A stretch of DNA of 64,000 bases from Candidatus Planktophila sulfonica (GTDB taxonomy: Bacteria > Actinomycetota > Actinomycetes > Nanopelagicales > Nanopelagicaceae), in assembly GCF_002288065.1 (NCBI RefSeq), contig NZ_CP016773.1, positions 682,001 to 746,000 of the forward strand. Reading direction: 5' to 3'. Below, in pieces: positions 13,698-16,796 of this stretch. Made by a program: the position numbers and the translations under genes. How positions within the stretch are numbered: the stretch's first letter is position 1; each line of letters opens with the position of its first letter. Below the pieces are notes generated by a model. It was not told the origin of the DNA, searched no databases, and saw only the letters and a program-made list of their open reading frames with translations.

Positions 13698-14882
13698 CTA
13701 ACCTAACTGAAGAAGGGCTTCATCGAGTAGTTGGTGAGCTAGCGTGTCTTTGGTGGTCTCTGCCACCTTCTTGGGTTCCTTACCTCGAACCAAGATAAAT
13801 CCATGAGTTGTCTCGCTATTGAAGATATCTCCCCCAGAAATATCATTGAGATAGAGAATATCGGCTCCTTTAGAAACCATCTTCGCCTGGGCGGTTTCGA
13901 GATTTTCGGAAGTTTCAGCTGCAAATCCGACAATAACTTGTCGAGACTTCTTTGCTGAGATTGTGCGCAAAATATCTGGATTTTCGACAAGGGCAATATT
14001 TGTGAATTCGTTCTTCTTAATCTTCGCATCCGCTATCTGCTTGGGGCGAGCATCTGCAACAGCGGCTGACATCACAAGAATATCTGTGTGAGTGAATTCT
14101 GCATCGAGTGCTGAGAGCATCTGTGATGCGCTCTCAACCTTAATTGTTCTTATGCCTTCAATGTCGGCAAGATTCGAATTTGCTGAAATGAGAGTTACTT
14201 GAGCGCCACGTCGCTGGGCCGAGCGTGCAACTGCATACCCTTGTTTGCCGGATGACTGATTTCCAATAAATCGAACTGGATCAATCGCTTCACGAGTACC
14301 GCCTGCGGTAATGAGCACTTTCTTTCCAAGAAGATCTGAACGTGAGCCCGTAATTTCGGCGAACTCCCCCAGAATGCGTGATGTTTCAGGAAAACGTCCC
14401 TGTCCCACATCTCCTGATGTGAGTGCGCCAGTATCTGGATCCATCACGTGATAGCCGCGGCTACGTAGCGTTGCAACGTTTGTCTTGGTGGCTTCGTCGT
14501 TCCACATCTCAGGGTGCATGGCCGGCACAATCAGTACAGGTGAGTTGGATGCAAGAATTACATTGGTAAGGAGATCATCTGCACGTCCCGCCGCAATTCT
14601 CGCCATGAGATCGGCAGTAGCAGGTGCGATGATGATGAAATTCGAGTTCTTTGCAAGAGAGATATGGCGGACTTCCTCTACGCTTTCAAAGACTTCCGTA
14701 GTGACCTTACGCCCTGAAAGCGCTTCCCACGTTGCCGACCCGACGAAGTTCAAGCTCGAAGGGGTAGGAACAACAGTTACGCCAAAACCGAGATCACGGA
14801 GACGACGGAGAAGATCGCAGGATTTATATGCCGCAATGCCGCCACCAACGCCGAGAATTACTTCACGGCCAAAACCTTGCAT
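13698..14882 (-). CDS. coaBC: Bifunctional CoaBC (phosphopantothenoylcysteine synthetase/decarboxylase)
   Basis: A 394-aa two-domain enzyme of coenzyme A synthesis. The N-terminal flavin-dependent CoaC domain (about residues 1-185) begins [20 protein letters not shown] and has PAMHPEMW with the catalytic His. The C-terminal CoaB domain starts at [19 protein letters not shown] and contains [18 protein letters not shown]. It forms 4'-phosphopantothenoylcysteine and then decarboxylates it. It follows rpoZ by 17 nt; the order gmk-rpoZ-coaBC is common in many bacteria. Confidence 0.95.
13700..13705 (-). promoter_or_regulatory. -10 element of metK overlapping the coaBC stop codon
   Basis: TAGGTT in minus sense (13705 to 13700) ends 6 nt before the metK ATG, and its final T is the first base of the coaBC TAG stop. 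An AGGA in the spacer could also act as a weak Shine-Dalgarno for a read-through mRNA, so both leaderless and leadered translation are possible. Confidence 0.45.
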
Positions 14883-14899: not shown

Positions 14900-15160
14900 T
14901 TAGGCGGTTGGTTCTAGATTTTCAATAGTCAAAAGACCTTCGTTGATTTCGCGAAGTGCAATTGACAATGGCTTCTCGTGAACGTGTGTATCAACTAGTG
15001 GCCCAACGTATTCAAGAAGACCTTCACCAAGTTGTGAGTAGTACGCATTAATTTGGCGAGCACGCTTTGCTGCATAGAGAACGAGGCTGTACTTAGAACC
15101 AGCCTTATCGAGAAGTTCGTCGATAGGTGGGTTTGTGATTCCATCCATATGTGCGCTCAT
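14900..15160 (-). CDS. rpoZ: RNA polymerase omega subunit
   Basis: An 86-aa omega subunit that helps assembly of RNA polymerase by chaperoning beta prime. [20 protein letters not shown] and the [12 protein letters not shown] helix are the conserved core. The ATG at 15160 has an AGGAG Shine-Dalgarno 6 nt away, whereas the frame could otherwise extend eight codons upstream. It sits between the mihF-gmk fusion and coaBC in the usual bacterial order. Confidence 0.93.
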
Positions 15161-15212
15161 CTGTACTCCTGTGTTTCGTAGCAATTAATGCTCTGCGGGT
15201 CTTGCAGCCTAT

Positions 15213-16085
15213 TTAGGCAGATACGAATTCTATCAGGGATGCGACTACCCCATCGACCTGGTCATTGATGAGGACTTTATCGAAGAAAGAGGCGGCAGCC
15301 ATCTCTTCTTGAGCCAAAGCCAAGCGGGCGGCTCTACGTTCTGGGCTATCGGTGCCACGACCTTCGAGGCGAGAAACGAGCTCTTCCCATGTAGGGGGCT
15401 CGAGAAATACGAGTATTGCTTCCGGAACCTTTGCCTTAACTTGCTTAGCTCCTGCGATCTCGATTTCAAGTAGAACGCTTTTGCCTACACGTAGTGAATC
15501 TTCAACAGCTCTTCGTGGAGTTCCATAACGGTTACCTGCAAACTCTGCCCATTCGAGAAATTCATTGGATGCAATGGCTGCATCAAATTCTTCATTTGAA
15601 CAGAAGTGATAGTCAATTCCATTTACCTCATTAAAACGAGGCGCCCGAGTTGTTGCTGAGACACTGACAAAGAATGGTGATGATTCTTTCAAAACCTTTG
15701 CGACAGTGCTCTTGCCGACACCACCGGGTCCCGAAAGTACAACCAACTTCCCAGGAGTGAGGCCGGAAGGAATCTTGAATTCATTATCTAAAGATTCCAA
15801 TTGATGTCTTCCAAGCCCTTGGATACGACGAGTTAATGAAATTCCAAGACGTTCCAGAATCGATTTGCCGCGAATTTTACCAACACCACTGATTGACTCA
15901 ACGAGTTCAAGTACACGCATCTTGGCGATTGCTTCATCATCTTTCGACATTGATACAACATCGGTTATCGACAGTTCGCCACTCTTTACGCGCGCTTTAA
16001 CAGCGGCTCTAATCTGACGCGACTCTTTAGCCTTTGCCAGCGCTCGGGCGCGCTCTTCCGGTGTCAGTTGTGGAGGTGCGCCCAT
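15213..16085 (-). CDS. gmk: In-frame fusion of integration host factor MihF and guanylate kinase
   Basis: A 290-aa protein with two recognisable parts. Residues 1 to about 103 match actinobacterial integration host factor (MihF): PPQLTPEERARALAKAKESR at the start, then an ISGVGKIRGKSIL DNA-contacting motif near residue 65-77. Residues from about 107 match guanylate kinase: P-loop GPGGVGKST at 119-127, SVSATTRAPR and the GIDYHF GMP-binding segment near 150-170. In most actinobacteria mihF and gmk are adjacent separate genes. Here there is no stop or start between them, only a short linker near residue 104. The ATG is 6 nt after TAGATT, whose TAG is the pyrF stop. The domain assignment is strong; whether the product is cleaved is unknown. 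Confidence 0.9.
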   Translation of the reverse strand: MGAPPQLTPEERARALAKAKESRQIRAAVKARVKSGELSITDVVSMSKDDEAIAKMRVLELVESISGVGKIRGKSILERLGISLTRRIQGLGRHQLESLDNEFKIPSGLTPGKLVVLSGPGGVGKSTVAKVLKESSPFFVSVSATTRAPRFNEVNGIDYHFCSNEEFDAAIASNEFLEWAEFAGNRYGTPRRAVEDSLRVGKSVLLEIEIAGAKQVKAKVPEAILVFLEPPTWEELVSRLEGRGTDSPERRAARLALAQEEMAAASFFDKVLINDQVDGVVASLIEFVSA

Positions 16086-16091
16086 GGGATA

Positions 16092-16097
16092 AATCTA
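16092..16097 (-). promoter_or_regulatory. -10 element of mihF-gmk sharing the pyrF stop codon
   Basis: TAGATT in minus sense (16097 to 16092) lies 6 nt before the mihF-gmk ATG; its first three bases (16097-16095) are the TAG stop of pyrF. No Shine-Dalgarno is present, so a leaderless mihF-gmk transcript starting at the end of the pyr operon is likely. Confidence 0.5.
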
Positions 16098-16796
16098 GTT
16101 GAGAATCTCGTCAGCGATGAATCGCGCCTTTGACTTCATTGCCTGCGCCCCATCAGACCATGCCTTGGTAATTGGACGACCAATCACCACGAAAGAAGCA
16201 CCCGCGGAGATTGCATCCTTCGGTGTCATGGTCCGCTTTTGATCATCGCTTCCTACTTCAGAGAGAGGGCGAACTCCTGGGGTAATAATGTGAGGCGTTG
16301 GTCCTACTGCCGAACGGATTGCCGCGATTTCAAGTGGAGAACAGACAATTGCTCGAGCACCAGCATCAACTGACATTTTCGCTAGAGCTACTGCGCTCTC
16401 TAGGGCTGGATTTGCGTAGCCGATTTCAAAGAGATCCTCTTCTGAAAGTGAGGTCAAAATCGTTACAGCAGTGACATCGGTTGCAGGAACTGCATCCACC
16501 GCAGCCTTCACCATTGCTCGACCACCAGATGCGTGAACGGTAAGGAATCTAGGTTTTAAGTTTTCGATTGCCTTAGCTGCCCCTTGAACTGTGTGAGGAA
16601 TATCGTGAAGTTTGAGATCGAGGAATATGTCCGCATCAGTCTCGGATTGGATGGCACGGATTCCTTCTTGGCCGAAGGATAGAAAGAATTCAAGGCCTAA
16701 CTTATAAACACTGACAGAATCTTGGGTTGCCGCAACCCATTGCTTTGCGATCTCGATATCTGGTGTATCAACAGCTAGAACTATTGGGGCTTTCAT
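16095..16796 (-). CDS. pyrF: Orotidine 5'-phosphate decarboxylase
   Basis: A 233-aa TIM-barrel enzyme converting OMP to UMP, the last step of the pathway encoded by this operon. The catalytic motif reads DLKLHDIPHTV near residue 60, with the Lys and Asp residues of the active site, followed by FLTVHASGG and IITPGVRP. Its length and motif match the short form found in Bacillus and E. coli; mycobacteria and many other actinobacteria have a longer divergent form. The ATG overlaps the pyrD stop by one base (TAATG). Confidence 0.94.
   Translation of the reverse strand: MKAPIVLAVDTPDIEIAKQWVAATQDSVSVYKLGLEFFLSFGQEGIRAIQSETDADIFLDLKLHDIPHTVQGAAKAIENLKPRFLTVHASGGRAMVKAAVDAVPATDVTAVTILTSLSEEDLFEIGYANPALESAVALAKMSVDAGARAIVCSPLEIAAIRSAVGPTPHIITPGVRPLSEVGSDDQKRTMTPKDAISAGASFVVIGRPITKAWSDGAQAMKSKARFIADEILN

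Follow-up and report, generated by a model that had tools for sequence, protein, structure and literature searches.

Within the window analysed here, a stretch of 64,000 nucleotides from Candidatus Planktophila sulfonica, a gene on the minus strand at positions 15,213 to 16,085 appeared to join mihF, encoding the actinobacterial integration host factor (IHF), to gmk, encoding guanylate kinase (Gmk). The locus raises the question of whether two neighbouring household genes have become one, and whether the product is a single bifunctional protein, a pair of ordinary proteins or an artefact of sequencing.

Organization of the fused gene and state of its two halves

The gene is a single open frame of 290 codons with an ATG start and, according to the list of open reading frames, no internal stop codon. 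The NCBIfam actino_IHF model (NF041260) matched residues 5 to 103 (15,777 to 16,073, minus strand) with 113 bits against a cut-off of 60 and covered profile positions 3 to 101 of 102. The guanyl_kin model (TIGR03263) matched residues 112 to 289 (15,219 to 15,752, minus strand) with 210.5 bits against an equivalog cut-off of 160.45, covering positions 1 to 179 of 180. Pfam placed H2TH_5 at residues 33 to 103 and Guanylate_kin at residues 113 to 289, both above their cut-offs. The P-loop at residues 119 to 127 (GPGGVGKST; 15,705 to 15,731, minus strand), which the preliminary description had called intact, was invariant in 31 aligned fusions, and the Gmk profile match was complete. Between the edges of the two NCBIfam profiles lies a linker of about 8 residues (104 to 111; 15,753 to 15,776, minus strand), in agreement with the earlier remark that no linker longer than a few residues was visible.

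Upstream of the fused gene is pyrF (16,095 to 16,796, minus strand; PF00215) and downstream is rpoZ (14,900 to 15,184, minus strand; PF01192), followed by an open reading frame at 13,698 to 14,882 (minus strand) that we take by homology to be coaBC, the gene annotated as coaBC at the same place in Tsukamurella. The order of all three neighbours is conserved. The proposed in-frame fusion of MihF and guanylate kinase was therefore confirmed: both domain models exceeded their cut-offs in one frame without a stop, at the same place in the gene order. The genome consists of a single contig of 1,344,614 bases with one IHF match and one Guanylate_kin match, which makes the fused gene the apparent sole source of both proteins.

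The structure prediction that had been recommended as a check was carried out, and both halves were folded in the AlphaFold2 model of the window protein (mean pLDDT, 87.5). The block at residues 101 to 110 had the lowest confidence (mean pLDDT, 66), and the pTM of 0.61 leaves the relative position of the two halves uncertain. The best Foldseek matches of the Gmk half were the Mycobacterium tuberculosis Gmk structures 1z8f (44% identity) and 1s4q (46%) over the aligned domain. Residues 4 to 103 of the IHF half aligned to 4itq (SCO1480) and residues 2 to 102 to 6tob (mIHF). Across 20 close pairs with usable divergence, drawn from 117 genes, dN/dS had a median of 0.054 in the IHF half and of 0.033 in the Gmk half. 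These low ratios suggest that both halves are under purifying selection.

The basic stretch RRxR, presumably the DNA-binding motif of mIHF, reads RRIQ at window residues 86 to 89 (15,819 to 15,830): the first two arginines are kept and the third basic residue is replaced by glutamine. Thus, DNA binding by the window protein may be altered. Arginine was found at this third position in 0/129 distinct fused sequences and 7/17 split sequences of the family, and the fused Nanopelagicaceae carry mostly Q, A or G. In the fusions of a second family, f36, described below, it was arginine in 1/56 and mostly G. Loss of the third arginine was considered as a general signature of fusion and rejected as not clean, since in a third family, f34, arginine was kept in 5 of 9 fusions and in 1 of 6 split genes, an inconsistent pattern.

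Distribution, origins and loss

The full-length frame without a stop was present in 33 of 37 genomes of the window's genus, its own genome included, and the four genomes without a match are 57 to 82% complete. In a wider sample of the family (f1, Nanopelagicaceae) the fused protein found a match in 271/296 genomes, and in all 108 of those with completeness of at least 90% and contamination of at most 5%; the rows listed for the genus spanned both halves, except for fragments in G274 and G299. Representative loci (n = 37) covered all 17 genera of the family sample, with one locus each for g26, g28, g35, g37 and g38. Twenty of these loci were fused and 17 split, which places the fused state in 11 genera (g1, g25, g26, g27, g28, g30, g31, g32, g35, g37 and g39) and the split state in six (g29, g33, g34, g36, g38 and g40). 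The order carB-pyrK-pyrD-pyrF-ihf-gmk-rpoZ-coaBC-metK-priA was kept throughout the retrieved part of each representative locus. In the split loci of g40 (8/8) and g34 (2/2) the mihF stop and the inferred gmk start overlap or touch (ATGA, TGATG, TAG-ATG or TAA-GTG), and the other seven split loci have 4 to 34 bases between them. The statement that in other actinobacteria mihF and gmk are two genes lying side by side was borne out by these loci and by a Tsukamurella record. Collectively, these data show that the mihF-gmk merger is a conserved, in-place fusion of neighbours.

The closest named relative of the window protein was encoded in CP015603.1 ('Actinobacteria bacterium IMCC25003'; 91% identity over the whole protein); a metagenome bin matched equally well, and more distant matches included several titled 'Candidatus Planktophila sp.'. 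Two other metagenome bins, CAMDBB010000001.1 ('Bifidobacterium breve', locus L092) and CAMBDL010000001.1 ('Streptomyces griseus', locus L119), hold fusions 78% and 66% identical to that of the window, and their titles look wrong.

Outside the family, the fused state was widespread in f36, where a hand count of the match listing gave one stop-free frame over both halves in 137/150 genomes. In the remaining 13 genomes the query was matched only in part (11 genomes), weakly and with no row listed (one genome) or not at all (one genome). Two of the f36 fusions fell just below the IHF cut-off of 60 (G663, 57.8 bits; G678, 55.3 bits). An f36 protein was 58.7% identical to a Microbacterium record whose gmk product of 298 residues passes both models. 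We infer from this closest named match that f36 is Microbacteriaceae or a very close family, with which the 85 genera and genome sizes of 0.9 to 4.6 Mb in the sample fit. In f34, 9/85 genomes were fused (4/4 in genus g103 and 5/11 in g117). Among the matches listed for 296 genomes sampled from the phylum, a single fused frame fell outside f1 and f36, that of G1102 (family f52), a frame of 287 residues in which purpose-built profiles matched both halves.

A separate observation concerns NZ_CP072877.1 (L299), titled 'plasmid unnamed' of Microbacterium sp. NIBRBAC000506063. This 465-kb sequence holds the core genes gmk, rpoZ and metK, has pyrF annotated as two overlapping pieces and carries Fic genes between gmk and rpoZ; it is either a chromid or an assembly problem.

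A sequencing or assembly error that masks a stop and a start between two genes would explain a single anomalous frame, and we assign this explanation a negligible probability. The same open frame recurs in the 33 genomes of the genus, among them the single-contig genomes G014 and G015, the fused state was found by representative loci in 11 of the 17 genera of the family, and the annotated Microbacterium gene contains both domains. Error was therefore rejected as the cause of the fusion. The impression of a single oddity was likewise not upheld, as the fusion occurs in those 11 genera and in two other families, in separate clades.

The domain pair was mapped on species trees built from eight flanking proteins, coaBC among them (3385 columns, IHF and Gmk left out), under a single simple model (LG+F+G4), with g35 forming a long and poorly placed branch. 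The wider tree contained 77 loci after 3 of 80 were dropped for too little sequence, and it placed the fusions of f1, f36 and f34 in separate clades. Within f1 the deep genera g29, g38, g33 and g36 were split and the inner clade was fused except for g34 and g40, which nested with the fused genus g32; an IQ-TREE run on 42 loci agreed on this nesting. The AU test rejected a tree forcing the fused genera of the family into one clade, both when the constrained search was fast (P = 0.0011) and when it ran longer and arrived at the same likelihood (P = 0.0007). The minimum number of changes between fused and split states was three in the f1 tree and six in the wider one, with loci lacking IHF scored as unknown. 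The history of the family comprised either one fusion followed by two splits or several fusions. Across these related bacteria, the same merger appears to have arisen several times independently.

IHF had been called essential in the preliminary description. This is reported for M. tuberculosis in PMC6155035. Of 19 actinobacterial genomes, chosen in part for the absence of IHF from their gmk locus, 10 had no IHF match above or near the cut-off anywhere in the genome. At nine loci (L167, L168, L169, L170, L195, L175, L176, L084 and L182; genomes G658, G661, G726, G717, G712, G513, G357, G040 and G423) no IHF was found beside gmk. These nine genomes and G326 lacked an IHF match above the cut-off genome-wide, three of them having weak matches under 21 bits; completeness is 78% for G726 and 83% for G712, and the gmk of G423 sits at the end of a contig. 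IHF thus seems to have been lost on several occasions, including within the fused family f36, and the absence of detectable IHF from some lineages suggests that the IHF half can be dispensable. A 10-kDa Clavibacter protein appears as 'Integration host factor' in PMC7839047 and could be an HU-type protein.

Internal gmk start codons

An internal start was defined as an in-frame ATG, GTG or TTG codon with a Shine-Dalgarno energy of -5 or lower, its position being counted in codons before the P-loop glycine. No such codon was found in the 40 codons before the P-loop of the window gene, a stretch that includes the linker. The only start-capable in-frame codons there were TTG at -23 (Shine-Dalgarno energy, -4.4) and TTG at -5 (-2.0). 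With no internal start, one bifunctional protein carrying its two domains at a 1:1 ratio would be expected from this gene. The fixed ratio proposed earlier thus gains support at the level of sequence for the window gene.

Four sister genera carry a candidate second start. Among the first 42 distinct fused genes of g25, g30, g31 and g39, codon -15 was a start with a Shine-Dalgarno site in 35/42, and the next best of about 260 columns reached 16/42. Where codon -15 encodes valine or leucine (n = 35), GTG or TTG was used in 31 genes compared with 7.3 expected. After the set was enlarged by 17 g25 genes to 59, which are related by descent and are not independent draws, codon -15 or -14 was a start with a Shine-Dalgarno site in 54/59 (g25, 20/20; g30, 3/3; g31, 17/22; g39, 14/14). 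Resampling of synonymous codons gave a mean of 14.8 and a maximum of 23 in 1000 draws, and of 250 codon pairs scanned, the runner-up that did not overlap this site reached 32/59. In 19/20 g25 genes exactly one of the two codons was a start, as a sliding real start would give. The exchange of ATG, GTG and TTG and the shift between two neighbouring codons would be hard to explain otherwise. No internal start was present at either codon in 5/22 g31 genes, or at those codons in the single g35 gene and the single g37 gene. These data suggest that g25, g30, g31 and g39 should mostly make the fusion plus free Gmk, and the putative internal start is a new detail beyond the fusion itself.

The signal was less distinct in the window's own genus, where codon -16 was start-capable in 28/74 genes and had a Shine-Dalgarno site in 19, compared with a synonymous null with a mean of 10.5 and a maximum of 18 in 2000 draws. 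With a slightly different Shine-Dalgarno window the count was 17 genes, near that of background columns. A start at -14 was seen in 5 of the 20 loci nearest to the window gene. Part of the genus may therefore keep a residual start and still make free Gmk. Among 54 distinct fused genes of f36, the fraction with a linker start and Shine-Dalgarno site was 0.20, compared with 0.15 to 0.57 in ten stretches of equal length, and no internal start stood above background. A cruder initial comparison of 20 fused and 17 split loci had found somewhat better values for starts with Shine-Dalgarno sites in fused linkers than in stretches inside gmk (P = 0.009) and no clear disadvantage of fused linkers against split ones (P = 0.20); it pooled genera with and without an internal start and was superseded by the per-codon tests.

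In g32, four loci (L058, L059, L293 and L294) have a longer linker in which codon -13 (-14 in L058) is ATG or GTG in 4/4 despite a change between methionine and valine. This is a possible further internal start, with a weak Shine-Dalgarno energy where it was computed (L058 and L059).

If the fused frame were cut or re-initiated in all of these organisms, the outcome would be two ordinary separate proteins. The starts in the sister genera and at -16 in part of the window's genus lean in that direction, as does the position of the linker as the least confident stretch of the AlphaFold2 model, yet the window gene has no such start and the f36 fusions show none above background. Even where an internal start exists, a free IHF would need a protease, because no stop codon allows IHF to end before Gmk. 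The linkers compared vary in sequence, and no shared cleavage motif was seen in them by eye. Initiation at internal codons outside the Shine-Dalgarno definition, or proteolysis, may still operate on fused genes. As an account of all of these organisms, two separate products are nevertheless rather improbable.

Interpretation and comparison with known systems

We consider it likely that the window gene encodes a bifunctional protein that arose when two neighbours fused in place. The mihF stop codon would have been lost in frame with gmk, joining the genes while those around them were not rearranged. The conserved synteny is observed directly, and the loss of the stop is suggested by split relatives in which the mihF stop abuts or overlaps the inferred gmk start. 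With no separate gmk start left, one polypeptide of approximately 31 kDa, as estimated from its length, would supply all IHF and Gmk at exactly 1:1. Intact domains and purifying selection suggest two working halves, most likely folded independently of each other and joined by a short flexible tether, of which the N-terminal half would bind and bend DNA and the C-terminal half would phosphorylate GMP to GDP. A large share of the cell's Gmk would then probably be nucleoid-bound. According to PMC6155035, mIHF is among the ten most abundant proteins of M. tuberculosis. If IHF is similarly abundant here, Gmk would be present at nucleoid-protein levels and mostly bound to DNA. The fused frames of g25, g30, g31 and g39 with their candidate gmk start would represent an intermediate state from which a return to split genes would be cheap, and the free Gmk added by that start may ease the fixed ratio.

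Whether the joining brought any gain is a further question. A stop codon between tightly packed genes might have been lost by drift and tolerated, with no benefit from the merger; this is compatible with a bifunctional protein and denies the benefit only. Such neutrality is a strong contender, with chances that we put a little short of even. The touching or overlapping genes of g34 and g40 mean that fusion needs only a tiny change, the trees require at least three changes of state in the family and six more widely, both partners are ordinary household proteins, and some f36 genomes appear to have given up the tie, with IHF missing beside gmk and not found elsewhere. Harder to reconcile with neutrality is the persistence of the fused state in the 137 f36 genomes, many of which measure 2 to 4.5 Mb and so are not streamlined, together with the linkers of the 54 distinct f36 genes, where no internal start rose above background. 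Guanylate kinase relatives are reported targets of the alarmone ppGpp in some bacterial groups. A more ambitious and in our view unlikely proposal is that Gmk is deliberately anchored to the chromosome through its link to a protein that in M. tuberculosis is among the most abundant, that guanine nucleotides are fed locally to transcription, that the guanine-nucleotide or ppGpp state changes DNA packing, and that this coupling evolved at least three times. Packed neighbours, a fused frame with an internal gmk start and a single bifunctional protein would on that proposal form a graded series.

On the favoured reading of a bifunctional protein formed in place, chromosome packing and guanine nucleotide supply would be physically tied in abundant freshwater bacteria and, judged by the closest named match, in Microbacteriaceae. 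The family also lets the first steps of gene fusion be followed in nature, since overlapping split genes, fused frames with a putative second start and full mergers occur together on a tree that is mostly resolved. No published description of a mihF-gmk fusion was found in the open-licence literature. NCBI types its IHF model as 'equivalog_domain', suggesting that multidomain members were known to those who built it. The public Microbacterium fused protein is annotated only as 'guanylate kinase', and IHF could be wrongly scored as missing by gene-name searches where a fusion carries that label.

Among known systems, the IHF half of the window protein is most readily compared with mIHF (Rv1388) and sIHF (SCO1480), to whose structures it aligns. 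Unlike these proteins, the window IHF is not free, has a kinase at its C terminus and carries glutamine at the third RRxR position. For M. tuberculosis, PMC6155035 describes gmk and rpoZ as the two genes downstream of mihF, an order shared with the relatives of the window gene, and reports that, owing to polar effects, both were needed on the complementing construct for a mihF deletion. The kinase half resembles M. tuberculosis Gmk (Rv1389) in its equivalog-level match to TIGR03263 and its identity to the two solved structures, but follows a DNA-binding domain within one polypeptide chain. In Tsukamurella tyrosinosolvens (NZ_LR134460.1), mihF and gmk likewise precede rpoZ, coaBC and metK in this order, as separate genes 6 bases apart. 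A counterpart in form in the public records is WP_223172673.1 of Microbacterium sp. NIBRBAC000506063, a 'guanylate kinase' of approximately 300 residues with the same domain order and matches to both models above cut-off (IHF, 69.6 bits). It most resembles the f36 fusions, which form a separate clade in the tree of flanking genes and whose basic stretch is mostly KRxG, compared with RRxQ in the window protein.
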